From positions 1 to 36,372 of IMG/VR virus record IMGVR_UViG_3300021181_000440: a stretch of 36,372 nucleotides of DNA; one strand, 5' to 3'. Under the pieces are notes generated by a model. That model ran no database searches, had not been told where the DNA came from, and was given only the letters and a program-made list of their open reading frames with translations. Below, in pieces: positions 14,400 through 36,372 of this stretch (its first letter is position 1; each line of letters begins with the position of its first letter). A program made the position numbers and the translations under genes. This stretch comes from a virus.

Positions 14400-16414
14400 A
14401 TCCGACCGGCCAAAGCCATTTCAACCAGGCTCGCATCGAATGGGCCATCCGTTTGAAGTATTCCCCCATGCCCCGGCTGGACATGGAAATCCTCGCCGGC
14501 CATCTCAACGAGTTTCGGATCGGCGAGTTCCGCACCATCGGCAAGATCTGGGAAGTGATGATGGAGCGCGACGGCGAACTGCTCGTCAATTCCGACAAGC
14601 GCAAGTCCGATGCCGCCGGCCTCGAATGGCAGATCGTCAGCGATGGATCCATTGACGGCGACCGCCACGCCGCTGCATTGCAATATTTTTACGACAACCT
14701 CACCGCCACCGAGGCGCTCGACCAGGACACCACCGGCGGCGTGGATGAACTCGTCTACCAGGTCATGTCCGCGCTGGATTACAAATACAGCACGCACGAG
14801 ATGCTGTTGCGCGTGGACAACCCCGCCGCCCGCGAGGTCACCGCCGAATTTCGCCACACCCCGCTTTGGTTCATGGAAGCCCGGCGCGGTTATCTCGGTT
14901 ACCTGAAACACATCTTCGATCTTTATGGCCAGCCCTGCATCCAGGGCGAATGGCTCACCGCCGTCAATACCGGCTGGATGCGCCCGCTCTCCGTCGCCTT
15001 CGGCATGAAGATGTTCCCGTTGCGCGACTGGCTGCTGTTCTGCACGCGCTACGGCAGCGGCTTTTTGGATGGCGAGACGGATGCCACGCTTGGTACGCCG
15101 GAATGGGATGCGGCACTGGATGCGTTGAACACCATGGCCAATGACGGCGCCGTGCTGCACAACTCCGGCGTTAGTTTCAAATTCCTGGAGCAATCCGCCC
15201 GCAACCAGCTTCCGTTCCAGCCCATCGTCGAGATGATCGACCGCCTTTACGCCAAGTGCTATCGGGGCATGGACATGGCCACCGGCTCCCGCGCCGGCAA
15301 AAGTTCCAACAGCAGCGGCGGCGAGGGCAAGTCAGTCGGTGCCAGCGTGCAAAAAGAGGAGTCCGGCATTTTCCTCATGCGCGATTCCAAATGGACCACC
15401 GGTGTGATGAATGAGCGCGTGGACCGTCCGGTCATCCGTTATCTGTTCGGCCAGGAACCGCGCGCCTGGTTCGTCCTCATGCCGCCGCTCGATGACACCA
15501 GCGAGCAGGATCTGCAAAGTCTGACCGGCCTCGTGCCGATGGGCTTCAAGGTCATGATGAAGGAAGTTTACAAGCGCTTCCGCTGGTCCGTGCCGGAAAA
15601 AGGCGAACCCTGCCTCGTACCGCCCGCGCCCATCGCGCCGCCCATGGCACCGCCTGCGGCTGCGCAAATCAAACCGGAAGATGAAGAGAATCCTTCAAAG
15701 CCCGGCGAGCAACCAGCGAAGCCGGGCGAACAGCCGGTCGCTGCCGCGCCGGTTCCGCCAGTGCCCGAGAAGAAACCCGCCGCAGTGGATGCCGCTGGCG
15801 AAGAAACCGATCCTCTGGTCCGCGACAAGACCGACAACGATGTCGTGCCCACCGCCAGGGCCCGGACCGGCGAGCTGACCCCGATCGGCGCCGGCGCAGA
15901 TCCCGCCACCTGGCCGGGCGCCAGCGGCCTCATGCCGGACACGCAAGTTGACTCCGCGAGCTTTTGGAGCCGCAGCGCCACCGTGCCGAAAGGTGCGGAT
16001 GGCCAGATCTTGCCCATGCCCTCGCTCGGTTACTCGTTGCCGAATGAACGCTTCGAACGCCTCGCCCAACTCGGCCTCGGCAATTCCCGCGCCGCGCAGG
16101 CGCTCCGTAAAACCATCCGCGCCGCCCGCGTGGAGATTGAATCCGGTCCGCAGGCCACCGCGCTCACGAATGCGGCCGATGTCACCGCCCGCCTGGCGGA
16201 TGAGTTGCACGCCACGATCGCGCCCGTTCTCAAACGCCTGGAGAAAATCGCCGCGCTGAAGGATCCCGCGATGCAACACCATCTTCTTGAAAAATTGATC
16301 TCTGATTTCCCCGCGCTTTCCGAAGCCATCAAGGCCGATGAAACCTTCCAGGACCAGCTCACGCCCGAACTCCTGAAAAATTTCATGGCCGGACTCAAAA
16401 CCAAAAAAGTATGA
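14396..16414 (+). CDS. portal protein, DUF935 (Mu gp29)-like
   Basis: 672 aa from ATG 14396 (MNPTGQSHFN). The central region (RHTPLWFMEARRGYLGYL, SVAFGMKMFPLRDWLLFCTR, YGSGFLDGETD, NSGVSFKFLEQ) follows the DUF935 pattern in which a 'lkk.w..f...yG.P...g' block is followed by a helical stem. The portal forms the dodecameric ring at the packaging vertex. A Pro/Ala/Lys-rich linker (about 420-490) leads to a helical C-terminal domain (about 540-670) like the second part of DUF935. The stop overlaps the protease start as ATGA. Confidence 0.85.
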   Translation: MNPTGQSHFNQARIEWAIRLKYSPMPRLDMEILAGHLNEFRIGEFRTIGKIWEVMMERDGELLVNSDKRKSDAAGLEWQIVSDGSIDGDRHAAALQYFYDNLTATEALDQDTTGGVDELVYQVMSALDYKYSTHEMLLRVDNPAAREVTAEFRHTPLWFMEARRGYLGYLKHIFDLYGQPCIQGEWLTAVNTGWMRPLSVAFGMKMFPLRDWLLFCTRYGSGFLDGETDATLGTPEWDAALDALNTMANDGAVLHNSGVSFKFLEQSARNQLPFQPIVEMIDRLYAKCYRGMDMATGSRAGKSSNSSGGEGKSVGASVQKEESGIFLMRDSKWTTGVMNERVDRPVIRYLFGQEPRAWFVLMPPLDDTSEQDLQSLTGLVPMGFKVMMKEVYKRFRWSVPEKGEPCLVPPAPIAPPMAPPAAAQIKPEDEENPSKPGEQPAKPGEQPVAAAPVPPVPEKKPAAVDAAGEETDPLVRDKTDNDVVPTARARTGELTPIGAGADPATWPGASGLMPDTQVDSASFWSRSATVPKGADGQILPMPSLGYSLPNERFERLAQLGLGNSRAAQALRKTIRAARVEIESGPQATALTNAADVTARLADELHATIAPVLKRLEKIAALKDPAMQHHLLEKLISDFPALSEAIKADETFQDQLTPELLKNFMAGLKTKKV

Positions 16415-17727
16415 ATATTTTACTGATCGACGATTCTGTGTTTGCCCTGGACAACAGTGCCGCCGCGGCCGCCGTCATCGAATCCCTCCGCACCGTCTCG
16501 CGCGAGGGTGACAATTATCTCATCGCCCTGGACAACGATGCGGGCATTGATGACGACGGCTGGTGTCTCGTCGCCCCCTTCGGCGAACATCTCAAGGTCC
16601 GGCAATATCGCGATGCCGGAGCGGTCAAGGAACAGACCTTCATCCAGGTGCTGGACAACGACTCCGCCGATGCGCTCGTCAACAGCGAGAATTCTTTCTT
16701 CAGCAAACTCAAACGCGCCATCGTCGGCATTCCGATTTACAAGGGTCATGGCGATTTGAATGACGTGGACGCCAAGGCGATCGGGAACACGAGCGAGAAG
16801 ATCAAGCTCGGCGTCATCGACAAGATCCGGAAATCCCCACGCGGCATCGAGGCGCACTTCGCCCTGGACAACGACGGCGCGAAGGCCGTGGCCGAGGGCT
16901 GGAAATTTCCGAGCTGCTTCTGGCTCGTCATGCCCTCCGGCACGCGCGCCCTGGCGAACAGCATCAACGCCATCGTGGCCAAGCCCTTCAAACTTTTGAG
17001 CGTCGCCCTGACGCCCTTCCCAAACATTTCCGGCGTGGAGTCCCTGGCGAATGCCAGACCGACCGAACCCGCCGTGACCGCTGCGGTGGCGGCCATCACC
17101 GAACCACAAACAAACAACCACATGAAACAAATCCTCATCGGGTGGCTCGCCGCACAAGGTATCGCCCTTGCGAACGACGCCACGGACCAGGCGGTCTTCG
17201 ACGCCTTCAACAAAGAGATGCTCACTCGCAGCACGAGCGTCGCCGCGTTGGGCAACGAAAAGACCACCCTCAACACAACCATCGGCACGCTGACCACGGA
17301 TCGCGACACGCAAAAACGCCGCGCCGATGAAGCTGCCACCGCGCTCGGCAATGAGCAGACCGCGCACAAGGGTTTGCGCAAGACCGCCGCCTCGCTCGTC
17401 GTGGATGCCGCCGTCCGTCTCGGCATCAAGACCGTCGCCGAACGCGATGCGGCCATCACCGCCTTGGAGAACAGCACCAAGTTCCAGGAAGATGCCGACG
17501 CGCTGCTCAAGACCGCGCCCGTCCGCAAGACCACCACCAACGGCCTCGATGTCACCGGCAAGCAATCCGCCGCCCTCGGCAATGAAGCCCAGGCGTTGCA
17601 GAACGAATACCAGCAGGCGTTCGCCGCCGAACTCATCGCCGCCGGCCAGGACCCGATCAAGGCGCACCGCAACATCATGACGCTGCCGAAGTATTCCGGC
17701 CTCGCCTGCAAGCTGGTGCCGAAATAA
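16411..17727 (+). CDS. Mu gpI-like prohead protease and scaffold (438 aa)
   Basis: The N-terminal ~225 residues match the Mu I-protein layout: IVGIPIYKGHGDL, then GVIDKIRKSPRGIEAHFAL, then WKFPSCFWLVMPSG and FKLLSVALTPFPNISGVESL. These proteases mature the capsid. A Thr/Ala linker leads to a coiled-coil scaffold (about 238-438) that can also be made from an internal start. No SD; ATGA overlap with the portal. Catalytic residues are not assigned with certainty. Confidence 0.82.
   Translation: MNILLIDDSVFALDNSAAAAAVIESLRTVSREGDNYLIALDNDAGIDDDGWCLVAPFGEHLKVRQYRDAGAVKEQTFIQVLDNDSADALVNSENSFFSKLKRAIVGIPIYKGHGDLNDVDAKAIGNTSEKIKLGVIDKIRKSPRGIEAHFALDNDGAKAVAEGWKFPSCFWLVMPSGTRALANSINAIVAKPFKLLSVALTPFPNISGVESLANARPTEPAVTAAVAAITEPQTNNHMKQILIGWLAAQGIALANDATDQAVFDAFNKEMLTRSTSVAALGNEKTTLNTTIGTLTTDRDTQKRRADEAATALGNEQTAHKGLRKTAASLVVDAAVRLGIKTVAERDAAITALENSTKFQEDADALLKTAPVRKTTTNGLDVTGKQSAALGNEAQALQNEYQQAFAAELIAAGQDPIKAHRNIMTLPKYSGLACKLVPK
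17122..17727 (+). CDS. internal in-frame scaffold protein (Mu gpZ-like), 201 aa
   Basis: Inside the protease gene, ATG 17122 (MKQILIGWLAAQGIALANDA) is preceded by an A/C-rich, SD-free leader (ACCACAAACAAACAACCAC) like the leaders of the independent late genes, at the junction between the protease and the coiled-coil half. In Mu, gpZ is the separately translated C-terminal scaffold of gene I. The architecture is the same, so a second product is likely. Confidence 0.6.
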   Translation: MKQILIGWLAAQGIALANDATDQAVFDAFNKEMLTRSTSVAALGNEKTTLNTTIGTLTTDRDTQKRRADEAATALGNEQTAHKGLRKTAASLVVDAAVRLGIKTVAERDAAITALENSTKFQEDADALLKTAPVRKTTTNGLDVTGKQSAALGNEAQALQNEYQQAFAAELIAAGQDPIKAHRNIMTLPKYSGLACKLVPK

Positions 17728-17762
17728 TCCCGGACCAACCGCAACCAAAAAATTAAATCACC

Positions 17763-18185
17763 ATGAAATCATTTACCTTGCTGTTGCTCGCCGCCGATCC
17801 AGCGGCCGGCAACGGTCCCGCCAAAACGCCTCCCGCCAAAACGCCGACCATCGAGGAGCTGCAAGCGCAACTCGATGCCGCCAATGCCAAACTGGCCGAT
17901 GCCTCCGCCGCCGATGCCGCGCGCATCGAGGTGGAAAAAGCCATCGCCGAAAAAACCAGCAAGGGGCTGACGCGCGAACAGGCCATCGCCGTCATCCGCC
18001 GGCAGAAGGAACATGATGAGGCGCAGGAAGCCTTCTGGGCCAAGCGCCGGCCCGCCGTCATCGCCATCTTGAAAAAGTATGACGACACCGTCGAGCAACG
18101 CAAGAAGCTCAACACCACGTTAAACACCAATATCTCGCCCGAAGAGATCGCCGCGGCCCAGAAGGCCATGACCGCGTCGAAGTAA
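17763..18185 (+). CDS. coiled-coil head-region protein (140 aa)
   Basis: Short hydrophobic start (MKSFTLLLLAADPAAGNG), Pro/Lys-rich linker, then a helix with strong heptad character (TIEELQAQLDAANAKLADAS) and charged helices to the end. It lies between scaffold and capsid genes and could be an accessory scaffold or head-completion factor. SD-less A-rich leader. No family recognised. Confidence 0.62.
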   Translation: MKSFTLLLLAADPAAGNGPAKTPPAKTPTIEELQAQLDAANAKLADASAADAARIEVEKAIAEKTSKGLTREQAIAVIRRQKEHDEAQEAFWAKRRPAVIAILKKYDDTVEQRKKLNTTLNTNISPEEIAAAQKAMTASK

Positions 18186-18217
18186 CCACCAGGCCATAAC
18201 CGAAAACAAAACTCCAA

Positions 18218-18793
18218 ATGAAAAAATTGAAAATTGTTTCCGCGATGCTGCTTGGCACGCTCTTCGCGACGATCGACCGCCTGTTCCGTCCCGCTTCCGC
18301 CGTTCCCCTGGCTAATGCCCTCGGCCTATGGGGAGCCAAGGCCGAAACGCTGCTGCTCGATCCCGCATCCGCGTACAACTCCGGCAACGTCTGGCCCGGC
18401 CGCAACCTGCTCGTGCAGCGTGGCGCCACCGGTTACCAGTACGGCGACCTCTCCGGCGGCGTGAACCGTCCGCTTGGTGTCACGTTGGATGCCCCGTACA
18501 GCGCCTCCGATCCGTTCGAGATCCACATCCTCGGTGCGCATCCGGGATTGTTCATCGGCATCGCGACTGGCGCGGTGACCATTGATCACCTGCTCGTGTC
18601 GGCAGCGGCCGGCAAGGTTGCAGACATCACCACGCTCGGCAACGGCACCTATTGGGTCGTTGGCAAGGCACAGGCGACCATCGCGGCCAACAACTCCACC
18701 ATGGAGATCAGCTACACACCCTGTCTGCCGTACCAGATCACTGTCAGCAATGGCGGCGGTACCTACGCGCTCACCGCCCCGACCGGTTCCTAA
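18218..18793 (+). CDS. capsid decoration-like protein with signal-like N-terminus (191 aa)
   Basis: The body (NSGNVWPGRNLLVQRGATGY, GVTLDAPYSASDPFEIHILG, TIDHLLVSAAAGKVADI) resembles the DUF2190/gpD-like small beta proteins that decorate capsids and usually sit just before the major capsid gene, as here. Oddly, the first ~28 residues (MKKLKIVSAMLLGTLFATID ... ASA) look like a Sec signal peptide. Either this is a hydrophobic capsid-contact arm or the protein is exported. SD-less leader. Confidence 0.6.
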   Translation: MKKLKIVSAMLLGTLFATIDRLFRPASAVPLANALGLWGAKAETLLLDPASAYNSGNVWPGRNLLVQRGATGYQYGDLSGGVNRPLGVTLDAPYSASDPFEIHILGAHPGLFIGIATGAVTIDHLLVSAAAGKVADITTLGNGTYWVVGKAQATIAANNSTMEISYTPCLPYQITVSNGGGTYALTAPTGS

Positions 18794-18828
18794 CCAACCC
18801 TTAAACCGAAACTTAACTGACCAATAAA

Positions 18829-19890
18829 ATGAAAACTACCGAAACACCGGTTGAACAACGCAGCCCGCACAATCAGGTGATTTACCGGGCGGCCATCATG
18901 GCGGCCGTCGCCAGCATGGGCATGGCCCTGTCCAACGACCTCAACTCCACGCCCTCCGGCGGAATCATGCTGGCCAACGATTCCATCCTCCGGACCGCCG
19001 TGCCGATCGAGGAACTCACCCTGTTCGCCGCGAGCTATGACTCGATGGTCGGCAACGGCCTGGTCAAGCTGCGCGATTTCATCGCGCCGCCCCGCCCGAC
19101 CAGCAGCCGCATCTTCCGGCTCACCAGCTACAACGAAAACGAGCCGTGGGAAACCGTGGATTACACCAAGGTCAAACGCGGCCTGCTTGGCGACTTCATG
19201 GAAGTCCGCCAGCGCACCGCCAGCAAATCCGATCAACAGGGTTTCAACCGTGGTCTCACGGTGATTCTCGATCGCGACGAGCTGAAGGACAAACCCGAGT
19301 GGCAGCAGATGCACACCAAATGGCTCATCGACCTGTTGAACCGCGCCTCCATCCTGGAAGCGATGGCTCTCTTCACGGCCTCCGCCATCAATGCCAACAC
19401 CACCTGGGACAGCGCCAGCAACCCGGATCTGGATCTGCGCAGCCGCATCCTGACCTTGTCCGACACAACGGGCTTCTACCCGACCAATGTCGCTTACGGC
19501 GACAAGGCCCACCTCAAGCGCCAGAACGCCTACGAATCCGAGCTGAACGCCGGCGCGCTCGCCCGTTCCAGCGCCTACAGCGAGGTGGAACTTGCCTCCG
19601 CCCTCGGCGTCGGCAATGTCCTCATCAACGCCGAGCGTTATCAGAACACCGCCACGGCCAAACAGGAAATCATCGGCCAGAACGTCTTGCTATTCACCGG
19701 CATGAAGGACGCCGGCCCCATGGATCCGTCCAACATCGTCCGCCACGTCTTCAACGGCAACCTTGGCGGCGGCGATTACGCGGTCTACCTCACCGACCTC
19801 GGTGTGAAGAAAATCGCGCTCACCGTCGAGAACTACGAGCTGATCCACGCCCAGCACACCAGCGGCATCCAGCAGCTCGCCATCAACTGA
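18829..19890 (+). CDS. major capsid protein (353 aa)
   Basis: By size, position after scaffold and decoration genes, and content this is the shell protein, probably HK97 fold: a helical N-arm, SRIFRLTSYNENEPWETVDY (E-loop-like), TVILDRDELKDKPEWQQMHT (spine-helix-like), a P-domain helix rich in Ala (EVELASALGVGNVLINAERY) and a beta ending in DYAVYLTDLGVKKIALTVEN. It is not strikingly like Mu gpT at the residue level, so the family assignment is from context. SD-less leader AACTGACCAATAAA. Confidence 0.8.
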   Translation: MKTTETPVEQRSPHNQVIYRAAIMAAVASMGMALSNDLNSTPSGGIMLANDSILRTAVPIEELTLFAASYDSMVGNGLVKLRDFIAPPRPTSSRIFRLTSYNENEPWETVDYTKVKRGLLGDFMEVRQRTASKSDQQGFNRGLTVILDRDELKDKPEWQQMHTKWLIDLLNRASILEAMALFTASAINANTTWDSASNPDLDLRSRILTLSDTTGFYPTNVAYGDKAHLKRQNAYESELNAGALARSSAYSEVELASALGVGNVLINAERYQNTATAKQEIIGQNVLLFTGMKDAGPMDPSNIVRHVFNGNLGGGDYAVYLTDLGVKKIALTVENYELIHAQHTSGIQQLAIN

Positions 19891-19958
19891 ACGCCCCGGC
19901 GGCGTGGCCGGTCGTGCCACGCCGCCAAAGCAAAAACGCAATTTAAATAAAATCAAAA

Positions 19959-20678
19959 ATGAAAACTGAATTATTCATCCTGGCTGCGCTTCTCTTATCC
20001 GTGGTCGCAACCTCACTGTTTATCCGCTGGAAAAACCGGCAGGCCAGCAAGTCACACTATGTGCGGCACTGGTACAAAACTCCATTCCGCGAAGTCTATT
20101 CGCAGACCTTCCGTTTGTGGCTGGCCAGCGTGATCAACTGTCACATCGTCCGCCGTCTTGAGCGGCCCACGATTGCTGCCAGCCTCGGCTGCTTGCTGGT
20201 TGCAACCCTGTTGCTGCTTGCCCCGCCGGCCTCGGCACAAGGCATCGGCACCTACGTTAATACCCGGCCAGTCACGTTGTTCTCCGGCTGGGTCACCAAC
20301 GGGCAGGCGCTGGTCCCTAACTCGGTGTTCACCAACTTCCTGAATTATTCCGGATTCCACCGGATCGGGTTGTGGGCGTCCACCACGTTCACCAACCCCG
20401 TCAACGTCGCCGGCTCCAATGTGTCGCTGCAATTCGACTTCGGACCCGGCCAGGGCAATGGTTATTCAAACTCCGTGTTTGGGACCAATTACCCGTTCAC
20501 CACCACCGAACCGTTGCAATGGTTCCTGCCGATCAACACCAATGCGATGTTGCTGACCAACATTGATTGGAATTTTTCGGACAGCGTGCAGTTCTGGCGG
20601 TTCACCCAGGAAACCAACTCCACCAGCGGCGGCCACAACGGCTTCTACCTGCAATTGGACGCAACAGTCACCCCGTGA
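19959..20678 (+). CDS. exported beta-rich protein with two hydrophobic N-terminal segments (239 aa)
   Basis: The first span is at residues 4-22 (ELFILAALLLSVVATSLFI), then a basic stretch, and a second hydrophobic stretch at 71-93 ending APPASAQG, a good Sec cleavage site. A GTG at codon 58 (20130) would give a normal signal peptide alone. The mature part is Thr/Asn/Phe-rich beta (TRPVTLFSGWVTNGQALVPN), a style common in Verrucomicrobiota surface proteins. Between capsid and connector one expects a head protein, so this is either an unusual head fibre or a surface-modifying cargo gene. Confidence 0.62.
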   Translation: MKTELFILAALLLSVVATSLFIRWKNRQASKSHYVRHWYKTPFREVYSQTFRLWLASVINCHIVRRLERPTIAASLGCLLVATLLLLAPPASAQGIGTYVNTRPVTLFSGWVTNGQALVPNSVFTNFLNYSGFHRIGLWASTTFTNPVNVAGSNVSLQFDFGPGQGNGYSNSVFGTNYPFTTTEPLQWFLPINTNAMLLTNIDWNFSDSVQFWRFTQETNSTSGGHNGFYLQLDATVTP

Positions 20679-20685
20679 CGCAACG

Positions 20686-20715
20686 CCGGCGCCGGTCCGC
20701 AAGGACCGGCGCCGG
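20686..20715 (+). other. GC-rich hairpin with GCAA tetraloop
   Basis: CCGGCGCCGGTCC (20686-20698) and GGACCGGCGCCGG (20703-20715) form a perfect 13-bp stem closed by GCAA, a GNRA loop. No T-tract follows, so full termination is unlikely. It lies seven bases after a stop codon and may stabilise or pause the late transcript. Confidence 0.7.
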
Positions 20716-20718
20716 TCC

Positions 20719-20754
20719 CTAAATCGTAAATCTAAAATCGTAAATCATAAATCC
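20719..20754 (+). repeat. short-period AAATCGT/AAATCTA repeat upstream of the connector gene
   Basis: TAAATCGTAAATCTAAAATC followed by GTAAATCATAAATCC, directly before ATG 20760. A shorter relative, CAATCCTAAATCCTAAATAC, precedes the tail-tube gene at 23683. These A-rich repeats supply unstructured leaders in place of an SD. Confidence 0.65.
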
Positions 20755-20759
20755 CTGGC

Positions 20760-21224
20760 ATGCCCTGGAACACCATAGACACCGAATCGATCATCAACTC
20801 GTTGACCCCGGTTGAGCAGTCCATCTTGCAAAACATCCAGGGCTTTGCCACCGGCCTGCAGGACAAGATCGCCACTACGATCTTGCGCGTCCGTTCCAAG
20901 ATCAAGGCCGGCGGCAATCCGCTCGATGGCTCCAACCCGCTCACCGTGCCTGATTCCCTGGCCGAGGAAGTCATCGCCATCGCCCGGTGGCGCTTCCTCT
21001 CCGATTTTCCCGGACTCAAATCACTCAAGACCAAGGAGCGCGAACAGGCCAGCAAAGACGCCGAGGACATGCTTAACGAGATCAGCAGCAACAAACCCAA
21101 CCGCCCGCGCACCGAACTGCCATTGGTCCCGGACACCGCTGCCTCGCCCGTCAACGCCGTGGGCATCGCGCGTCGCGGCCGCCGGCTCGAAACCGGTTCA
21201 TTCGATAAAATCGGCGAAACCTGA
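20760..21224 (+). CDS. head-tail connector, DUF1320 (Mu gp36)-like
   Basis: 154 aa. Helical connector pattern: IDTESIINSLTPVEQSILQN, then DKIATTILRVRSKIKAGGNP, then VPDSLAEEVIAIARWRFLSD, closely following the gp36 layout of alternating helices ending in 'ai.rY.ly' (here AIARWRFLS). It forms a ring under the portal. The Pro-rich basic tail may contact neighbours. The stop shares one base with the next ATG. Confidence 0.75.
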   Translation: MPWNTIDTESIINSLTPVEQSILQNIQGFATGLQDKIATTILRVRSKIKAGGNPLDGSNPLTVPDSLAEEVIAIARWRFLSDFPGLKSLKTKEREQASKDAEDMLNEISSNKPNRPRTELPLVPDTAASPVNAVGIARRGRRLETGSFDKIGET

Positions 21225-21976
21225 TGAGCGCCACCCTACAACTTCCGGCCGCATCGCAAAAGGCCCTCGCCGGCTCGCTGCAAAAGTATTCCGGCAGCCT
21301 TGGTGCTGACTGGGTGCAGCAGGCGCTCGACCGCATTTTAAGCGGCCTGAAAAGCGCGTTAAACCCAGCCGATGAATCACGAAGTGATGGCACCACGGCC
21401 GAGACCGGCGCTTCGCCGTCCACCGTGCGCGCCGATGTTGTTTCGGATCTGCTCAACAATTTCAAGGATGGCCAGGCCATCGCCGAGACGCTCAACCTCG
21501 ATTTCAAGATCAGCACCGCGCTCGATGTCGCCGGCGGCGCCGGGCGCTTTGTCCAGGCGCAATCCGACGTGGATGAATATCCCGCCTGGGCGCTCTCCCG
21601 GATGTATGCTCGCAATGTGCCGCGTGGCTTCAAGGCCGGCCCCAAGGGCGCCATTATACCAGTGCCGGATGACGATTGGCCCTCACGCTGGGAAGAGGCG
21701 GGCAATGCTTGCGGCGATGACGATTGGTTGCCGTGGGATGGCGATAGCCAGACAGGTCGAGGCATTGCGCTGAAATCCTCCGGGATCTGGGAACAGCTCG
21801 GCAGCCTGCGCGATGACTCGCTCGGCAATGCGTTTCCACCGTTCGCTTTCAACAGCGGCTTCGACGTGGACGGCGTGCCTTACAAAGAATGCGTCGAACT
21901 CGGTTTGCTGGATGACGGCGACAAGCCGGAACCAGCGGACGTGGATCTAAACAAACTCTTTTCCCCGATCGCATGA
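21224..21976 (+). CDS. minor head protein / gpF C-terminal-like (250 aa)
   Basis: A helical N-terminal half (SGLKSALN, VRADVVSDLLNNFKDGQAIA) leads to a C-terminus FPPFAFNSGFDVDGVPYKEC followed by VELGLL. That ending resembles the 'PPFAFnSGm.w..v...ea..lGl.' end of Mu-type gpF minor head proteins. The full gpF (SPP1 gp7-like) domain is missing: the protein is about half the usual length. It may be a split or reduced head-completion protein. Acidic tail. Confidence 0.6.
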   Translation: MSATLQLPAASQKALAGSLQKYSGSLGADWVQQALDRILSGLKSALNPADESRSDGTTAETGASPSTVRADVVSDLLNNFKDGQAIAETLNLDFKISTALDVAGGAGRFVQAQSDVDEYPAWALSRMYARNVPRGFKAGPKGAIIPVPDDDWPSRWEEAGNACGDDDWLPWDGDSQTGRGIALKSSGIWEQLGSLRDDSLGNAFPPFAFNSGFDVDGVPYKECVELGLLDDGDKPEPADVDLNKLFSPIA

Positions 21977-22599
21977 ATGTCACGCCCGCCATCACGATCA
22001 CGGACAACGTCACGCCCGAACTGGAGAAGCTCATCGCGAAGACGAAGCCCGATCAGCTCGCCCGCATCGCGCGGCAGCCGCTGGAAACGTTCACGCGCGT
22101 TCACCTGGCTTCGAACGGACGCAATAAAAAAGGCTGGCCCTCGACCGGCTTCTGGGAATCCGCCTCGCGCGCGACCACGGCCACCGCGACCGGCGGGGCG
22201 GTGGAGATCTCCATCAACAAGCTCGGCGTGCGCCAGCGCGTGCTCGGCGGCCACATCGGCCCGGTGAACGCCAAGGCCCTCGCCATTCCGATCTCGCCCG
22301 TCAGCTACGGCCATCTTCCGCGCGAGTTCCCCGGCCTCTTCATCATCAACACGCCCAAGGGCGGTTACCTGGTCCAATACGGCGAGACCACGACCACGAA
22401 CGCGAAGGGCGCGACCCGCACCCACGGCATCGGCCACGCCGGCGGCGGCAACTCCCAATCGCGTCAACGTGCTACGTTGAATTTCCTTTTCAAACTCGTC
22501 GCCGGCGTGGACCAGGCTCCGGACCCGACCGCCGTCCCGTCCGCCGATGAATTCACCGAAGTCGCCATGAGCGCGATCCATAGGAGTCTTGCGTCATGA
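21973..22599 (+). CDS. Mu gpG-like virion morphogenesis protein (208 aa)
   Basis: Features of phage virion morphogenesis / HK97-gp10-type neck proteins: helical start (NVTPELEKLIAKTKPDQLAR), a KKGWPSTGFWESASRAT loop, GGAVEISINKLGVRQRVLGG and HIGPVNAKALAIPI. In Mu, gpG completes tails/heads and follows gpF, matching the order here. ATGA overlap upstream; its stop overlaps a mini-ORF ATG. Confidence 0.72.
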   Translation: MNVTPAITITDNVTPELEKLIAKTKPDQLARIARQPLETFTRVHLASNGRNKKGWPSTGFWESASRATTATATGGAVEISINKLGVRQRVLGGHIGPVNAKALAIPISPVSYGHLPREFPGLFIINTPKGGYLVQYGETTTTNAKGATRTHGIGHAGGGNSQSRQRATLNFLFKLVAGVDQAPDPTAVPSADEFTEVAMSAIHRSLAS

Positions 22600-22631
22600 A
22601 AAATAATTGCCCATGGCGGCTCGCCATATGA
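22596..22631 (+). CDS. candidate 11-residue leader ORF
   Basis: ATG 22596 has AGGAG (22582-22586) nine bases upstream, overlaps the gpG-like stop (ATGA), encodes MKNNCPWRLAI, and ends at a TGA overlapping the next gene's ATG (22628). A hairpin fills its second half. It could couple translation of the downstream tail gene, or be what remains of that gene's original start after a repeat insertion. Confidence 0.4.
   Translation: MKNNCPWRLAI
22613..22627 (+). repeat. related copy of the element-end hairpin, touching a start codon
   Basis: ATGGCG-GCT-CGCCAT is a perfect 6-bp stem. With GCCC before it (22609-22627), it matches the right end of the 8905-9115 element (GCCCGTGGCGGCTCGCCAC) at 17 of 19 bases, the two changes being compensatory at the stem base. 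It ends one base before ATG 22628. Confidence 0.7.
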
Positions 22632-23377
22632 TCAATCTCGAACAGATCCAGGAAGACATCTTCGCGCTGCTCATGTCGTTGCCGGCGCTGGCCACCGTCA
22701 ATGTGGTGCTCGAACGCAAGTTCATCGCCAACCAGGAAGTGCAGATGGATGCCGTCTGGCAGACCCCCCGCAACGGCGCGGCCGGCAACGGCATCCTGAT
22801 CGAGATGCCCGATGTGGAAGTGAAGTCGGACAACGTCTCCGGTCCGCCGCAAGTGGTGCTGCTGAAATTTGTTTTGTTCCAAAACGGCGATGCCGCGCTC
22901 CTGCCGAAAGTCGGCGGCGGCTTCTACGCCGAGCAGCTCGAGCAAACCGTGCTCGATGCGCTGCACCTGCAGAGCTTCGGCGCGCTCGGCACCCTCCGCG
23001 CCGTGGGCAAATTCTCCACGCCCGCCCGCGACTACGATTTCCTGAACGCCCGCCGCCTCACGCTCCGCCTGGAACCGCTCGCCACGAAACAGACGCCCCG
23101 CACCGCGCCAATCACCGCCAACCTGGCGGCTGGTAATTGTTCCCTCGCCTGCGCGACGCCTGGCGTGAAGATCTATTTTACCTTGGACGGAAGTTTTCCC
23201 GCGAACAACGAGGTTGCTGTCCTGCTGCTGCCACAAGGCAACGTCGCCGCCCCGGTTAATAATTCGAGCAAACCCTACATCGCCCCGTTCGCCGTCACCA
23301 GCGGCCAGGTCATACGGGCGGCCGCCTACATCCCCGGCATGAACCCCGGCGAAATCCTCAACTCAACTGTCCCTTAA
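22628..23377 (+). CDS. tail terminator-like (Mu gp37) protein fused to chitobiase-C-like domain (249 aa)
   Basis: Residues 1-155 look like a DUF1834/gp37-type tail completion protein: IQEDIFALLMSLPALATVNV, a beta core (NGILIEMPDVEV, VVLLKFVLFQNGD), then LEQTVLDALH and TLRAVGKFSTP. Residues ~160-249 carry GVKIYFTLDGSFPANNE, SKPYIAPFAV and GQVIRAAAY, the pattern of chitobiase/hexosaminidase C-terminal (CHB_HEX_C) beta sandwiches, likely a surface or sugar-contact domain. ATG 22628 is preferred; ATG 22613 lies in the hairpin. Confidence 0.7.
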   Translation: MINLEQIQEDIFALLMSLPALATVNVVLERKFIANQEVQMDAVWQTPRNGAAGNGILIEMPDVEVKSDNVSGPPQVVLLKFVLFQNGDAALLPKVGGGFYAEQLEQTVLDALHLQSFGALGTLRAVGKFSTPARDYDFLNARRLTLRLEPLATKQTPRTAPITANLAAGNCSLACATPGVKIYFTLDGSFPANNEVAVLLLPQGNVAAPVNNSSKPYIAPFAVTSGQVIRAAAYIPGMNPGEILNSTVP

Positions 23378-23381
23378 CAAA

Positions 23382-23669: not shown

Positions 23670-23682
23670 ATCCTAAATACCT

Positions 23683-24681: not shown

Positions 24682-24711
24682 ACCACGGATGAACACGGAT
24701 GAACACGGATA
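24682..24711 (+). repeat. three-unit 10-bp repeat in tail-gene spacer
   Basis: ACCACGGATG, AACACGGATG, AACACGGATA directly after a stop codon and ahead of ATG 24740. Same family and same orientation to the downstream gene as 5242-5271. Confidence 0.8.
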
Positions 24712-24739
24712 AAAAACAACCATTAACCACCTCTAAAAT

Positions 24740-25009: not shown

Positions 25010-25033
25010 TAATTAACGCGTCGAGTTTCGACT

Positions 25034-25447: not shown

Positions 25448-25461
25448 CGCTGGACCCAAGT

Positions 25462-25719
25462 ATGAAAAACAAAATTCATCCTGCTGATAAAAAAATTATC
25501 TGCCACCGCGTCCGGTATCTCAATGAACGCCGCCGTGATGTTGCTAAAGCAATGAAAGTATCAATGGCCGTCATTTCAATGGCCCTGTCCGGTTGCGCAT
25601 GGCAACCGAACGGGTGGAACGGGACGATTTACACGGACCCACGCTTCCATGTGCAGACATACGCGGTCGGCATTAGCGGCGCAATACCGCCGTGGCCCTG
25701 GTGGAAAAAACAAAACTAA
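25462..25719 (+). CDS. protein with LacI-like helix-turn-helix or lipoprotein signal (85 or 55 aa)
   Basis: Read from ATG 25462, residues ~30-52 (RRDVAKAMKVSMAVISMALSG) resemble the LacI helix-turn-helix (DVAK.agVS.atVSraLsG). Read from ATG 25555, MKVSMAVISMALSGCAWQPN is a lipoprotein signal with lipobox LSGC. The two readings share the same residues. The short tail (TIYTDPRFHVQTYAVGISGA, then PPWPWWKKQN) does not look like a LacI ligand domain. I slightly favour the lipoprotein because exported proteins follow. Confidence 0.5.
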   Translation: MKNKIHPADKKIICHRVRYLNERRRDVAKAMKVSMAVISMALSGCAWQPNGWNGTIYTDPRFHVQTYAVGISGAIPPWPWWKKQN

Positions 25720-25723
25720 AAAT

Positions 25724-29480: not shown

Positions 29481-29484
29481 ATTT

Positions 29485-31029
29485 ATGGCCGATTCATCCT
29501 ACAAAATCCAGATCATCTTCGACCTGATCAATCAGGGGAAGATTCCCGAGGCCAAGGCCGAATTGCAGCAACTCGCCGCCGGCACCGCAACCTTCACCGA
29601 CAAAACCGATGAGCTTGGGGCCGCGCAAAAGAAAACCGCCGGGCTCGTGGATGAACACAATTCCAAAGGGCGGGCGCAATATCTTCTTTTTTCCGAGATG
29701 AACCGCATCTGCCCGAAACTCGGCGAAGCCATCCACATGGTCTTTGCTGGGCCGCTCGCACCGCTGCTCATCCTCACCGGCGCGATCGAGTACGCCCACG
29801 AACAGTTGAAGGAATTCAACGAGGAAATGGACAAAGCCGCCGAGAAAGCCGCCGAGGGGGATTTTCTGCCGAACATCGAGGACAAGCTCCGGGTATTGGG
29901 CGAAGCGGCCGCCGCCGCCCAGGCCTATGCCGATAACATCAGCAATGCCGCCACGAATGAGGATCACCTCATCAAGTCCTTGGATAATGAATTAAGCCGG
30001 CTGCAGGCCATCGAACGCGCCCGCGCCGCCCTGGACAGCGCCAAAAAGGAACTGGCCATCGCCCAAATTCAGCAACAGGAAGCCGCCGGTCAAATCACGC
30101 CCGAACAGGCGGCCGAGCAGCGCGCCAAGGTTGAAACTGATTTCATCCAGGATCAGGAAAAGAAAAAAGAGGCTGATCAGGATGCCCAAGTGGCGCGGTT
30201 CAACGCCAATATTAAAACACTTTCGGACCACCAGGCCGAACTCGACACCAATAAAGATTCCACCGCCGCGGCCGTGACCGCCCGCAAGGTGCATGAAGGG
30301 GAAGTGCAAATTGATCCGGCGGTAATTGCAAAACAACAAGCCGAAGCCCAAAAAAGGCTGGACGCCGCCAATACCTTGGTGGATCAGGCCCGTTCCGAAG
30401 CGGACCAATATCGCGCCGCAAAAGATTACAGCCTTTACGACCCGCACCACCAGCAGGAGCTTGACCAGGCGCAGGCGGATGCGCAAGCCGATGCTGACAA
30501 ACAAAAAGGGGCGGTAAATTATTTTACATATCGGCAGCAGCAATATGACCAGGCCAATTCCCCCGCCGCCAAAGCCGCCGCCCAGGCCCAAGATGATGCG
30601 GCCAAGGCGGCCTTGGAGGCGGCGGATAAAAACCGCAGCGAGGTAAAAAACACCACTGAAAAACGTGATCAATACACGGCAGAAAACATCGGCGATCCGA
30701 ACGATCCCGATTCGCCGCGCAACCAGGCGCGGGCCATCGCCGGCATCCAGGTCCAGACCAAGAATACGGAGGAGAATGCCCGCATCGAAAAACAATTCAC
30801 CGCCGACGCCACCGCCATCCACGCGTTCGATGTCTCCAAACACTCTTCCCCGGAGACCATTCGCAAGGCGGCCCAGAACATCGCCGACCTTCAGCTCATC
30901 TTGAAGGACCATGCGGATGTGGTGAAGAACCTCGCTGACCTGGATCTGCCCGGCATTATGAAGGATGTCCAATCTGCGCTGGCGAAATTGCAACGCCAGA
31001 ACGAAGCCAACGCCCGCGGCCCGCAATGA
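29485..31029 (+). CDS. tape-measure-like coiled-coil tail protein (514 aa)
   Basis: Almost wholly helical: a short globular start (MADSSYKIQIIFDLINQGKI), a hydrophobic span near 85-100 (MVFAGPLAPLLILTGAIEYA), then Ala/Gln/Lys/Glu/Asp-rich coiled coil to the C-terminus. This composition and position before the tail-tip genes fit a tape measure that sets tail length. It is short for one (514 aa), implying a short tail, or the protein is a different coiled-coil tail component. ATGA overlap with the next gene. SD-less. Confidence 0.65.
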   Translation: MADSSYKIQIIFDLINQGKIPEAKAELQQLAAGTATFTDKTDELGAAQKKTAGLVDEHNSKGRAQYLLFSEMNRICPKLGEAIHMVFAGPLAPLLILTGAIEYAHEQLKEFNEEMDKAAEKAAEGDFLPNIEDKLRVLGEAAAAAQAYADNISNAATNEDHLIKSLDNELSRLQAIERARAALDSAKKELAIAQIQQQEAAGQITPEQAAEQRAKVETDFIQDQEKKKEADQDAQVARFNANIKTLSDHQAELDTNKDSTAAAVTARKVHEGEVQIDPAVIAKQQAEAQKRLDAANTLVDQARSEADQYRAAKDYSLYDPHHQQELDQAQADAQADADKQKGAVNYFTYRQQQYDQANSPAAKAAAQAQDDAAKAALEAADKNRSEVKNTTEKRDQYTAENIGDPNDPDSPRNQARAIAGIQVQTKNTEENARIEKQFTADATAIHAFDVSKHSSPETIRKAAQNIADLQLILKDHADVVKNLADLDLPGIMKDVQSALAKLQRQNEANARGPQ

Positions 31030-33302
31030 CCTACGAAACCCTCCAATACGTAGACGCGACCGGCGCCACGCAAGAGGTGGCCATCCAGAATCTCACCCCG
31101 CAAGGCACGATCAGTCTGGAATGGAACCCGCGTTCGCTCGAGGCTTCGGAATTCGTCATCACCTTGCCGCAGGCTCCGGAGACACCGCTCGTCATCCCTT
31201 TTAAGTCGCGGTGTATTATTCGCGGATGCAGGGCATCTGCCAATGGTGCCAATAATTCCTTCTCCGCCGGCACAATTCTTTTTCAGGGTCGTCGCACGGA
31301 TGTGGACGCCTCCAGCCGCGGTGGCGAAGTCTCCACGGTGATCAAGGTCTCCGACCTTTTTTGGGACCTTAAAAAACTCACGTACAAAATGGGCTGGAAC
31401 GAGCCGACCGGCGGCACCATCACCGCCCCCGTTTACGGCATCGCCTACTTTGCGGACATCGTCATGTTCCAGCCGGACCAGCAAGGCCAGTTGCAGGCGG
31501 ATGGCACCCACGCCGCCTACGCGCCCGCGCCGTTCGCCGGCGAACTGATCACCACCTGGCAGCAGCTCATGGCCATCGTCTATTACGCCATGAACTTCGG
31601 CGGCGCCGGCGCGGAGGCCGTGCAGGTGCAGATGAGCAACGTCGCCGAGTTCACCCCCAGCTATCGCAATACCGATACCGCCCGCAGCATCAAATGTCTG
31701 GAGGCCATCGTGAAATGCCTGCAACCGCATCCGCAGGTCCGCAGCTTCATCGATCACACCACCACGCCGCCGACGTTACACTTTAGGGATATACCGCACA
31801 GTACACCCGTCAACCTGCCGTACAAGTCCACCGATCCGACCGGGCGCACCCAAAGCCATGAGGCCACGAACATCAAGCCGTTGCCCGACCTGAAGCCCGA
31901 CCGCGTCAACATCAATTATAAAATAAATGGCTCCTTGAACGGCTCGCCCGTGGTCAGCTTTGCCACCGATACCTATCCCGCCGCCGGCGGACCGTTTTTG
32001 CAGACCGAGGATTATTCCGTGGACATCAGCGGCCTGTCGCAACACATCACCAGCAAGAACTTTGTTTCCCACGCCTTCGATCCGACCAGCCTCGATCTCT
32101 GGCGGCTCAAGGTCGCCTCGCTCAAGGAAATTTCCGAGCACGGCCAGATCCCCAATGATGGAGCGGCCGGCGCGCTCACCTTCATCAACACCGCGCCCTA
32201 CGATGCCGTGACCAATCCCAAGGGCATCCAGGTCTTTGACGCGGACCTGAACCCGGTGGATTACGAAGCCACCTTCATCTATTGGACGCCGCATTCCATC
32301 TACGCCTGGTTCACGCTCTCCGGCGGCGTGCCCGTGCAAGCCCGCAAGGCCACGGTCAAGGCATTTTTCAATTACGACAAAGTCAACCTCGTCACCGGCG
32401 ATGTCGAGACCATCACCGAGCAGCAACATTCCTTTCACGTCCTCCTCACCAACGCTCCGACCGCCGAATATTTCATGGAGCAAACGGAGAATGATGGCGA
32501 AAGTGCGCCGCCCAACCTCGCCCAAAACATCTTCACCGAGCTGGCCGTGCTGCAATGGAAACTGAACCACAAGATCTGGCAGGCCGGCCCGGACCAGAAC
32601 ACGCCGCCGGCGTTTGTTTTCCCCGGCAACAACATCGTGAACCTGGTCGGCGGCGATCCCGCGTGGACCACCATGAACGCCGTGCCCGAGAACGTGACCA
32701 TCCGCCTGCAGCGCGTCCTCATCGCCGGCGTCTGGACCCTGCTGGCGCATCAGACCATCGAGTGCGGGCCGATGAACCATCTGGAGCCAAGCTACTACGT
32801 GCAGCTCTGGAACATGTTCGCCAACCGGAAAATCCGCCCCATCAATTCCGACCAGCGCCTCACCGGCTTGCCCGCCGGCGGCAACACGGATCTAAGCGCC
32901 ACCGATGCCGCGGATAATTCGCAGCCCGCCCAGCCGGTTTACGGTTCGCAAATCGTCTGCGCCCCGGACGCGCAAAATACCGGCGTGACCGGCGGCGCCC
33001 AGATCACGTTTCAACTCAACGCCCCGACCGGCCAGATCCCCGTGTTCCAACAACCGACCGGCGGCGCCACCACGCGCACCACCGGCGTCATCGCGCCGGT
33101 TTACAGCGGGCTCGGGCCGCCCTCGGGCACGGCCGTGCCGCCCGCAACCTTGCCCACGCTGCCCGCGAATACTTATTACCGGGAATTCGATCAATACTAT
33201 GACATGACCGGCGTCACCGCTTCGAAAGCGCCGGTGGTCTGGCTCTGCATCACGGCCGGCACCAGCACGTCGGCTGTCTGGTCCAATTTCAACCAGTGCT
33301 AA
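31026..33302 (+). CDS. tail-tip / hub-like protein (758 aa)
   Basis: Follows the tape measure, where distal tail and hub proteins are encoded. The N-terminal beta region (TYETLQYVDATGATQEVAIQ, SLEWNPRSLEASEFVITLPQ) and ANNSFSAGTILFQGRRTDVD suggest a hub-like beta domain. Middle parts contain VSDLFWDLKKLTYKMGW and long Thr/Asn-rich beta segments. C-terminal region is low-complexity Pro/Thr. I do not recognise catalytic motifs. Confidence 0.62.
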   Translation: MTYETLQYVDATGATQEVAIQNLTPQGTISLEWNPRSLEASEFVITLPQAPETPLVIPFKSRCIIRGCRASANGANNSFSAGTILFQGRRTDVDASSRGGEVSTVIKVSDLFWDLKKLTYKMGWNEPTGGTITAPVYGIAYFADIVMFQPDQQGQLQADGTHAAYAPAPFAGELITTWQQLMAIVYYAMNFGGAGAEAVQVQMSNVAEFTPSYRNTDTARSIKCLEAIVKCLQPHPQVRSFIDHTTTPPTLHFRDIPHSTPVNLPYKSTDPTGRTQSHEATNIKPLPDLKPDRVNINYKINGSLNGSPVVSFATDTYPAAGGPFLQTEDYSVDISGLSQHITSKNFVSHAFDPTSLDLWRLKVASLKEISEHGQIPNDGAAGALTFINTAPYDAVTNPKGIQVFDADLNPVDYEATFIYWTPHSIYAWFTLSGGVPVQARKATVKAFFNYDKVNLVTGDVETITEQQHSFHVLLTNAPTAEYFMEQTENDGESAPPNLAQNIFTELAVLQWKLNHKIWQAGPDQNTPPAFVFPGNNIVNLVGGDPAWTTMNAVPENVTIRLQRVLIAGVWTLLAHQTIECGPMNHLEPSYYVQLWNMFANRKIRPINSDQRLTGLPAGGNTDLSATDAADNSQPAQPVYGSQIVCAPDAQNTGVTGGAQITFQLNAPTGQIPVFQQPTGGATTRTTGVIAPVYSGLGPPSGTAVPPATLPTLPANTYYREFDQYYDMTGVTASKAPVVWLCITAGTSTSAVWSNFNQC

Positions 33303-33309
33303 ATCGATT

Positions 33310-36300
33310 ATGGGCAAATACGATAAATGCTGTTGTTGCTCGGCCGGCGGCGTTTCCAACTACGTCCAGAACGTCACCAAGGTCCGCCCCGAGAACGATT
33401 CCGGCGGCGTCCACTACAGCGCCAATCCGTTCCCGCGTTACAACACGGATTACTGGACGGAATTCGCGGGCAACACTTGCATCCCCGGCCAGTGCGGACC
33501 CTGGCTGATCGGCGGCGATAAAAACGGCGTCAGCTCGCAAGCCGTGCAAGACGGCGTGGACGACATCGGCGTGACATTTGGTGTTGATCATAATATTTAC
33601 GACATGCCGGCGGCTACGTCCGCCGGTTCATTGGTGCCCGGCACCACGTATAAGATCGCGACCGTGGGCACGACGGATTTTACCACCATCGGCGCGGCGG
33701 CCAACACGGTCGGCACCATCTTCATCGCCAGCGCCGGCGGCAGCGGTACCGGCACGGCGCAGCAACAAGTGGATACCCGCGTGGCCAAACTGTTCGGCGG
33801 GCAGTGGATGTTCGTAAAAAAGATGTTCCACGGCTGTCTTGGCTGGTCGAGCAACGACGCCTGTGCGCAAGACCCCAACATCGCTGCGGATCAAACGCAT
33901 TACTTAACCTGCGGAATCGACGCATCACTTTATATGAACGCGCCCGGCGAGGGCGGGATAGTCAATGAGTTCAATTCGACGGCGACCGGCGGCGTTACGG
34001 TGAATCCACAATCAGGAATTCTGACCCACAACCTTTTGACCACGCAGACCAATTATGTGACGCTGTTAGATCAGCCGCGCGTAGAAGTAACCAATATATC
34101 TGGCGGCGCGGGAACAGAATGGGACACCTCGGGGAATGTCACCGAAACTTGGTTGTCCGGGGCGACGACATGGATGGACGGCTACTGCGCTTCGGGCGTT
34201 TACTGCGGCGAGATCGGCACTCCTACGCAATTCAACACGAACCCGGTTTCGCTCACCCCGCTGGGCGGAATCACGTTGCAGGCGGTGGTCGCGGCGTTCA
34301 ATGCGGCGGTAATTGCCAATGGTGGAACGCAGCTGCCGGCCATCACCGACCCACAGAATTATAGCGGAAGCGGAACCATCCTATATACCACGCGCCAGAC
34401 CACATTGAGCCTATCGTGGTCAACGTCTGCCACCGAGTTCCAATGGAGTTATGATGAAAACGGAGCGACCAGGTCTGGCTTCAGCCCGGCAATCAGCGGG
34501 GAAAACAAATTCAGCGGCGCAATGACGTTGTCGAACGCTTACACCAGCGCCGACTTCACCGGCGACATCTATGCCGCCGCAAATGCTTGGAACCTGACCG
34601 ATTTCACATTGGCAAAGCTGCGCACGGACGGGACGCTGGCGTTGGCCCCGCTCTGCTGTTACGACGAGGTACAGGGGGCTATATCACCCCTGGCGGGTTT
34701 CCGGCCGGTTACGATGGATGATTATACCGGTTACGTTACCAACGACCAAAACGGGAACTCACCATGGACCACCAGCACCAACCCTCCGTCGCCTGGATGG
34801 ACTTATGCGCCGTTCAACAACGACAGCCAAGGCCAGCCTTATGACGGAGGCTCCAACCCCAACTGGAGCGGTCCCGCTGACTACAACGTGACCTGGCCGC
34901 AACGCGCATGGATTGACCCGAACAATTACCTTTGGAAATATCCGAACGGAAGTTATGACCAGTCGATCGGCCCGCAGAGTGGTGGATTTACCGGCGGCGC
35001 AACGCTCATTACCGGCCTGCGCTCTGGCTCCATCATCTCGCACAACCCGGCCGGCTACGACCCGCACTTCTGGTTCAATTTCAAATCGTCGCTGTGCTTG
35101 GAGAATGATGACGACACCACATCACTGTGGGATTATCAGATCGGCGGCCAGACACCCGGAGGCTTGCCGCCCGTGGCCCAGCGCTGGCTCGATGTCTGGG
35201 AGGCCTGTCCCTATCCCGCCGATGATGCGGATGTCGGCTGTACTCCCACCGCCACTGGCGTGAGCGGCGTTTATCCCTTCGCCTTTTGGAATTACTCCGC
35301 CGGCACCGGCGTCTTCGGCAAATACATTCAAGCCACCCAGAAATGGCCGGCGGTGAACTTTGGCCGGCCCTGCGGTCCGGATAAATATGCCGTGGATCAG
35401 ACAACGGTTTGCTGCATTAACTCCGGAGATGTCACGAGCACGCTCGTCATCCAGGCCACAACCAATGCAAATCTGCCATTGGATATCGGCGGATTGGCGA
35501 TCGGCAATACTGTGGCCATTAACGGCAGCGGCATTTACCAGATCACTGACCTCTCCTACGCTGGTGGCGGAATATTCAATTGCACCGTTGGCGCGCAGAT
35601 CTCCGCATTGCCATCCGGCTTCTCCATGTCCAATGGCCAGGGCGATGACGATGCTAATGTCGTCGGCGCCTTGCGCTGGCCATCCGCCCCGTCCACCTGT
35701 GGCACGCCGCCGCCCAGCGGTCAGACCGGCGTGTTTTTGGATTGGGCCTTTAACTATCGCGCCCAACAAACTGCCGTCACCTCGCCACCCGCATGGTACG
35801 CCGGCATCAGCGGCATCTTGAGCTGCAGCGTCGATCAATTTAATTACAACGGATCCTGCCCCACCATTGTCGGTATCGTGCCTCCGGGATCGCCCGAAAC
35901 CTGGCGCAATGCCGTCTTTCACAATTCACCCGCCAGCTTGCCAACCGATGATGTCTTCGGCGCGCACTGGCAGGCGGCAGTTTATCTGACCATGCCTGAT
36001 CCATATAATCAGACACCATTTAATCCCGTTTGCCCGCCCGGCGGCACCGAGGATTCACCCGCTCCCTCGTGGAATGAGGACGATGGCACCTGCCAGGGAG
36101 ATTCCGGCATCAAGAAGTACTTTCCGCATCATCCGCTCGTCGCGGCATTGTCCACCATGCCCTTCGGCTCCTCATTGCCCGCTGGCGTGAAACTATATTT
36201 TGACAGCAGCAATACCTTTTCCCCGCCCAACTGGCCGAACGGCATATACAATTCGGGCAACGGCTTCACCTCGCTCTACACCGACTGGCTGTTCGCGCAA

Positions 36301-36372
36301 AGCGCCTGCGCCTGCATCAACGGCAGCGGCCGGTTCGGCGGGATATACGCAACCTTCGTCGCATGCACATAG
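33310..36372 (+). CDS. large tail-associated protein with phage GTTYKI-type module (1020 aa)
   Basis: Starts MGKYDKCCCCSAGGVSNYVQ, with four adjacent Cys that may bind metal or be crosslinked. Residues ~107-147 carry LVPGTTYKIATVGTTDFTTI and GAAANTVGTIFIASAGGSG, a module widespread in phage virion proteins ('pG..Y.I..vGttdFt.iGa..n..Gt.F.a'), thought to be a small beta unit. The rest is Gly/Asn/Thr/Trp-rich with many Cys and no enzyme motif that I can name. The stop codon is the last three bases of the window, so the 3' neighbours are unseen. Confidence 0.68.
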   Translation: MGKYDKCCCCSAGGVSNYVQNVTKVRPENDSGGVHYSANPFPRYNTDYWTEFAGNTCIPGQCGPWLIGGDKNGVSSQAVQDGVDDIGVTFGVDHNIYDMPAATSAGSLVPGTTYKIATVGTTDFTTIGAAANTVGTIFIASAGGSGTGTAQQQVDTRVAKLFGGQWMFVKKMFHGCLGWSSNDACAQDPNIAADQTHYLTCGIDASLYMNAPGEGGIVNEFNSTATGGVTVNPQSGILTHNLLTTQTNYVTLLDQPRVEVTNISGGAGTEWDTSGNVTETWLSGATTWMDGYCASGVYCGEIGTPTQFNTNPVSLTPLGGITLQAVVAAFNAAVIANGGTQLPAITDPQNYSGSGTILYTTRQTTLSLSWSTSATEFQWSYDENGATRSGFSPAISGENKFSGAMTLSNAYTSADFTGDIYAAANAWNLTDFTLAKLRTDGTLALAPLCCYDEVQGAISPLAGFRPVTMDDYTGYVTNDQNGNSPWTTSTNPPSPGWTYAPFNNDSQGQPYDGGSNPNWSGPADYNVTWPQRAWIDPNNYLWKYPNGSYDQSIGPQSGGFTGGATLITGLRSGSIISHNPAGYDPHFWFNFKSSLCLENDDDTTSLWDYQIGGQTPGGLPPVAQRWLDVWEACPYPADDADVGCTPTATGVSGVYPFAFWNYSAGTGVFGKYIQATQKWPAVNFGRPCGPDKYAVDQTTVCCINSGDVTSTLVIQATTNANLPLDIGGLAIGNTVAINGSGIYQITDLSYAGGGIFNCTVGAQISALPSGFSMSNGQGDDDANVVGALRWPSAPSTCGTPPPSGQTGVFLDWAFNYRAQQTAVTSPPAWYAGISGILSCSVDQFNYNGSCPTIVGIVPPGSPETWRNAVFHNSPASLPTDDVFGAHWQAAVYLTMPDPYNQTPFNPVCPPGGTEDSPAPSWNEDDGTCQGDSGIKKYFPHHPLVAALSTMPFGSSLPAGVKLYFDSSNTFSPPNWPNGIYNSGNGFTSLYTDWLFAQSACACINGSGRFGGIYATFVACT

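Follow-up and report, generated by a model that had tools for sequence, protein, structure and literature searches.

Shine-Dalgarno Sequences Accompany Gene Overlap in a Mu-Like Phage and in Its Most Likely Host, a Verrucomicrobiota Order

Introduction

Why would one phage genome place Shine-Dalgarno (SD) sequences ahead of the genes of one module and do almost entirely without them in another? The question is raised by the IMG/VR virus record IMGVR_UViG_3300021181_000440, analysed here over its whole length of 36,372 bases (hereafter the window). A preliminary description held that its early, minus-strand genes have SDs, that its late genes from 16411 to the end lack them, several having A-rich leaders instead, and that the split suggests either different initiation modes for the two phases or two ancestries for the modules. 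We regard another reading as probably correct, namely that the SD is tied to gene overlap, with de novo starts ignoring it and the SDs at overlaps serving termination-reinitiation. Start codons are predicted throughout; they come from our own codon-usage model, which has no SD term, followed by curation by hand, and SD strength is the longest match to AAAGGAGGTG within positions -20 to -4.

The Phage, Its Relatives and Its Likely Host

The window encodes a Mu-family portal (PF06074), a terminase (phrog_675) and a Mu-type transposase (phrog_310), and its portal is common to nine IMG/VR records. Named phages (50,697 records) gave no match to the window by DNA or by portal protein, and for the terminase only 19 remote matches, all below 30% identity; no match was obtained when IMG/VR was searched with the window's transposase as query, nor a confirmed one when genome contigs were searched with the portal alignment. 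Within one Verrucomicrobiota order, 320 genomes were searched with a profile of the nine portals and 22 gave matches (best E=1.8e-295), and the host is therefore most likely from that order, an uncultured group; G011, the genome at the centre of the 320-genome search, holds locus L097, titled Limisphaerales bacterium.

The relatives compared below are ten related phages and prophages, four of them prophages, whose contigs carry host genes on the early side. Three near-duplicates (G004, G007 and G009) were dropped, being 95–100% identical over 19.8–27.0 kb to kept records, and 8.5 kb are common to G008 and G246 at 80%. The late module is conserved across G001-G009 and the early module is exchanged, a window-like transposase occurring in five of the nine IMG/VR records and being strong in only one.

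SD Sequences in the Window

The minus-strand block at 1..7639 would be the early module, since it holds the transposase. It consists of tightly packed small genes together with the transposase and a possible MuB-like ATPase, and it has an SD of at least 5 nt at 11 of its 18 starts, including nine of the ten that overlap an upstream gene. The eleven early starts named in the preliminary description (105, 1447, 3837, 4049, 4978, 6262, 6546, 6776, 7015, 7317 and 7457) all have 5–9 nt of AAAGGAGGTG, as claimed; the general statement that early genes have SDs holds for these 11 of the 19 minus-strand starts but fails for the other eight, which stay below 5 nt (102-350, 1472-3658, 4046-4729, 4975-5244, 5271-5777, 5781-5933, 7454-7639 and 7989-8228). 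The possible AAA ATPase at 353..1447 (minus strand) has a weak Pfam AAA_16 match (E=0.028, below the cut-off), and its start, with AAAAGGAGG ahead, has an SD of 8 nt despite a spacing of 24 nt. The transposase at 1472..3658 (minus strand; phrog_310, E=1.4e-9) overlaps its upstream gene by 4 nt and has no SD, while two small overlapping genes with GTG starts at 3655-3837 and 3834-4049 (minus strand) have GGAGGTG and GGGAGGT, respectively, and four small genes chained by 4-nt overlaps at 6552..7457 (minus strand) have a GGAGG-type SD at each.

On the plus strand, the SDs described for two packaging starts are present. The gene at 11642..12199, which abuts its upstream neighbour, has CGGAGGAA ahead of its start (5 nt), and a mini-ORF of 51 codons at 14244..14399 has its own GGAGG (6 nt). 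This mini-ORF overlaps by 4 nt, on one side, the terminase large subunit at 12298..14247 (plus strand, start uncertain; phrog_675, E=1.5e-38; Pfam GpA_ATPase above the cut-off) and, on the other, the Mu-type portal at 14396..16414 (plus strand; PF06074, E=1.5e-39), whose start is conserved in an alignment of relatives and also carries an SD, GAGGT (5 nt). In four relatives looked at, the terminase–portal junction is a gap of about 60–175 nt.

The morphogenesis module at 16411..36372 (plus strand) has 20 gene starts, none of which reaches 4 nt, and its spaced genes have A-rich, G-poor leaders. The reported lack of SDs from 16411 onwards thus stands, with one exception that had been overlooked: AGGAG at 22582..22586 (plus strand), the only SD found in the late module, lies 9 nt ahead of the ATG at 22596, which opens a mini-ORF (MKNNCPWRLAI, 22596..22631, plus strand) bridging the genes 21973-22599 and 22628-23377 with a 4-nt overlap on each side. 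This mini-ORF contains a palindromic repeat, TGGCGGCTCGCCA, at 22614-22626, so that this copy sits in the junction of the genes starting at 21973 and 22628 and forms part of the bridging mini-ORF; further copies lie at 9102-9114 and 8906-8918 (minus strand), and an extended version of the pattern is present in two other viral contigs. The putative major capsid protein at 18829..19890 (plus strand) is so labelled from position and conservation only, with 12 of the 13 related records matched by tblastn and no family match in the searches run; its leader, CTTAACTGACCAATAAA, has no SD, nor has the late start at 25462. Late starts with an SD that had simply been missed are ruled out, since no 5-nt SD precedes any of the 33 alternatives examined.

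In numbers, SDs of at least 5 nt are found at 11/19 minus-strand starts and 0/20 gene starts from 16411 on, and those of at least 4 nt at 13/19 and 0/20 (Fisher p=3.3e-6). The free-energy scan of leaders that had been proposed as a check upholds the early/late difference (Mann-Whitney p=0.0009 for pairing energies). Early leaders pair far more strongly than their shuffled composition predicts (z=-8.9), whereas late leaders equal theirs (z=0.2) and are, as described, A-rich (38% A, 12% G). The late leaders, then, both lack SDs and contain little G, and it could be argued that the late genes merely lie on a G-poor strand, where SDs are missing by chance. The GC skew, which lies between -0.07 and -0.19 from position 16001 onwards, and the agreement of late leaders with shuffled ones are in keeping with this argument, but internal out-of-frame ATGs of the window still have a 5-nt SD in 12/260 cases, and the early SDs are left unexplained; the shuffled leaders rule out composition alone as their cause, and we consider the argument as a whole very unlikely to be right.

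Overlap separates the starts within the early module itself, with SDs at 9/10 overlapping and 2/9 other starts (p=0.005). Overlapping starts also differ between modules (9/10 early against 1/8 late, p=0.003), while the difference at non-overlapping starts is not significant (2/9 early, 0/13 late, p=0.16). At the four late 4-nt overlaps that were scored, the ends of the upstream proteins leave almost no room for an encoded SD (expected 0.01), which accounts for part of this gap among overlaps.

SD Sequences Follow Overlap in Related Phages

In the ten related records, early starts have an SD at 26/61 overlapping and 18/187 other positions (p=5e-8), and late starts at 8/22 and 3/122, respectively (p=1e-5). 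With G008 omitted, the counts are 26/61 and 18/177 early and 8/22 and 3/108 late; with the four prophages omitted, they are 13/33 and 10/103 early and 5/14 and 2/73 late. Internal out-of-frame ATGs of the phage genes have a 5-nt match in 108/2224 cases, which is the chance level, so that the late non-overlapping starts are at or below chance; late leaders spaced by more than 15 nt, pooled over all records, have 40–51% A and 6–16% G from -9 to -3. When the upstream genes were shuffled synonymously, the SDs at 4-nt overlaps exceeded expectation in the relatives' early genes (24 observed, 9.5 expected, n=54), in their late genes (8 and 2.5, n=21) and in the early genes of the window (6 and 1.8, n=7), which means that overlap SDs are under selection beyond what the encoded protein ends require. 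The effect of overlap is present in every gene-size class of the relatives (overlapping against other starts: 12/25 vs 13/74, 13/27 vs 4/121 and 11/35 vs 7/138).

These counts bear on the first of the two readings proposed earlier, according to which initiation is specific to the phase, early genes using SDs and late genes A-rich leaders, with a change of the ribosome during infection shifting translation. Within the window, the gene starts (11/19 early, 0/20 late) and the overlaps (9/10 early, 1/8 late) agree with it, as does the mild early excess at the relatives' non-overlapping starts (18/187 against 3/122, p=0.019). However, eight of the window's 19 early starts have no SD, no gene for bS21 is present in the seven phage records searched, and the relatives' late overlaps carry SDs as often as their early ones (8/22 and 26/61, p=0.80). 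The comparison with relatives thus sustained the overlap rule in both modules and removed the phase split among overlaps; it is still reasonable to speak of two initiation modes, but what divides them in general is something other than phase, and a phase-specific mechanism appears unlikely. The window nevertheless exceeds its relatives in the early/late gap among overlaps.

SD Sequences in Host Genes

The same rule is observed in the Verrucomicrobiota order itself. In five genomes, a 5-nt SD is found at 26/110 overlaps of the -4/-1 type against 53/781 starts spaced by more than 15 nt (p=3e-7), with 3/15 at other overlaps, 12/150 at a spacing of 0–15 nt and 19/173 at 16–60 nt; leading starts and those spaced by more than 60 nt have it in 34/608 cases, near the 4–8% of internal ATGs. 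Overlap SDs of the host also exceed the synonymous expectation (23/94 observed against 12.6). The value of 26/110 refers to a larger, unfiltered set; in the first host set, overlaps with an SD fell to 2/19 under a reliable-start filter, one that requires a nearby upstream in-frame stop and retains few overlaps.

Ribosomal-protein genes of the five hosts have at least 4 nt of SD at 38/96 starts, compared with 20/21 in Escherichia coli, and 5 nt at 16/96 compared with 7/21, the stricter cut separating the two less well; the starts of rpsK, rpsE, secY, rplR and rpsQ among the genes of these operons are uncertain. One host, L258, reaches 11/20 at 4 nt. In three of the five hosts (L254, L256 and L258), rplX has GGAGG while most of its neighbours have no SD, and rplX of E. 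coli has one too. Some Verrucomicrobia have already been called SD-scarce with an intact CCUCC, according to the available text of PMC10783764, and in the 16S loci covered, which come from Verrucomicrobiota other than the prophage-bearing genomes, the tail GGATCACCTCCTTTCT is found many times, including at L131 (titled Verrucomicrobia subdivision 3).

The host genes weigh against the second reading proposed earlier, in which the early module came from an SD-using lineage and the late module evolved with an SD-poor host. One part of the proposal stands: relatives that share their late genes do swap early modules, and just one of the nine IMG/VR records gives a strong transposase match. Since the host's own genes share the overlap rule, however, foreign ancestry is unnecessary for explaining the SDs. 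The late overlaps of relatives have SDs as well, the SDs of the window's early module are patchy and track overlap (9/10 vs 2/9), and the ten relatives point to no early excess once overlap is controlled. We consider two ancestries a highly improbable cause of the split.

Termination-Reinitiation as the Probable Mechanism

The association of SDs with overlap is shown in the window, in its relatives and in host genes, and so is selection beyond protein ends; the underlying process is probably termination-reinitiation. On this model, host ribosomes would start most genes without an SD, and a gene with room ahead of it would have a host-like, A-rich and G-poor leader. A start codon that overlaps the upstream stop, mostly as ATGA, would be translated by the ribosome that has just terminated, and an SD within the end of the upstream gene would help this ribosome to re-engage. 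The early module, packed with small overlapping genes, would consequently be full of SDs, and the mostly spaced late module would have almost none, so that, in this SD-poor host, the early/late contrast would come down mostly to how tightly the genes are packed, leaving a residue in the window that packing does not explain.

As counterpoints, the late overlaps of the window are almost all without an SD (1/8), and the spaced early gene at 353-1447 has a strong one. Gene size or module matters too, given the early excess at non-overlapping starts noted above and the SDs of small non-overlapping genes in the relatives (13/74 below 300 nt, 11/259 in longer genes). Moreover, SDs stand at 24–43% of overlaps, and most overlaps manage without one, which fits the variation of the SD contribution from gene to gene reported in the available text of PMC6728339. 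If the overlap reading is right, this bacterial order and its phages would use the SD as a junction signal and not as a start signal, and gene finders trained on SDs may misread such genomes.

rpsU and a Possible Occlusion of the Anti-SD

In Flavobacterium, as set out in the available text of PMC9976891, bS21, bS18 and bS6 keep hold of the anti-SD; almost no gene but rpsU has an extended SD there, and ribosomes lacking bS21 are the ones that read it. The rpsU genes of the order studied here have an extended SD-like leader in 35/36 loci (at or below -13.7 kcal/mol) against 5/759 other host genes, and a TTG start in 27/36 loci against 43/759; the loci are L247-L253 (seven) and L274-L302 (29 new ones, best-scoring matches only). 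Their bS21 has Phe in 36/36 loci at the position aligned with Tyr54 of Bacteroidia (the Tyr of 9i5v_9 and, via 9i5v_9, of 7jil_z). In a wider sample of the phylum (L303-L331), 17/29 rpsU leaders reach the same energy, and Phe or Tyr is found at position 54 in none of 21 scored proteins, His being found in three and eight being unscorable. The main text of PMC9976891 does not mention Verrucomicrobia, and among the literature as available to us only PMC10783764 and PMC9723584 join the terms Verrucomicrobi, bS21 and Shine-Dalgarno.

Judged by these sequences, the rpsU result hints that occlusion of the anti-SD and autoregulation by bS21 may occur in a group other than Bacteroidota, which we offer as a lead, not a result. 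It would be possible to extend it to the phage, with the anti-SD held by Phe54 of bS21 as in Bacteroidia, SD messages read best by ribosomes without bS21, the early operon keyed to bS21-less or reinitiating ribosomes and the late genes to bS21-bearing ones. Such a scheme, by which translation would switch from early to late genes with no ribosomal protein supplied by the phage, is a speculation to which we give very little credence. No phage-borne bS21 is found in the seven records searched: PF01165 is absent from the window and six relatives, some of which are perhaps fragments, while the control search found a match in 6/14 genomes.

Comparison with Known Systems

The closest parallel is the third of the patterns described by Huber et al. 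(2019), in which, by the available text of PMC6728339, the SD serves reinitiation but hardly de novo initiation, as in Crenarchaeota I, haloarchaea and cyanobacteria; coupling was tested there in Haloferax and E. coli. In both systems SDs are scarce where a gene leads or stands apart (here 34/608 in the host and 3/122 at non-overlapping late starts of phages) and more frequent at overlaps (here 26/110 in the host, 26/61 early and 8/22 late in phages, above synonymous expectation). They differ in that a Verrucomicrobiota order and Mu-like phages are concerned here, and the 5-nt overlap SDs amount to 24% in the host and to 43% and 36% in the phages, values scored otherwise than in PMC6728339. 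The main text of that article, as available, does not name Verrucomicrobia, and it reports Bacteroidetes to be without SD use at overlapping genes.

The order resembles Bacteroidia, as portrayed in the available texts of PMC9976891 and PMC9723584, in its mostly SD-less genes and in the extended SD ahead of rpsU, and may do so, at the level of sequence, in an intact CCUCC, seen here in the phylum, and in an aromatic residue aligned with position 54 of bS21. Unlike Bacteroidia, it has Phe in place of Tyr, mostly TTG starts of rpsU and SDs in use at overlaps. Some phages carry a bS21 of their own, expressed late (PMC9723584, available text); like them, the window phage probably infects an SD-poor host, but no bS21 is found in it or in the six relatives searched. 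Compared with known Mu-like transposable phages, it has no near relative by DNA or portal among the 50,697 phage records and its MuB candidate has an AAA match at E=0.028 only, whereas it shares with them the Mu portal family (PF06074) and a Mu-type transposase (phrog_310, E=1.4e-9).
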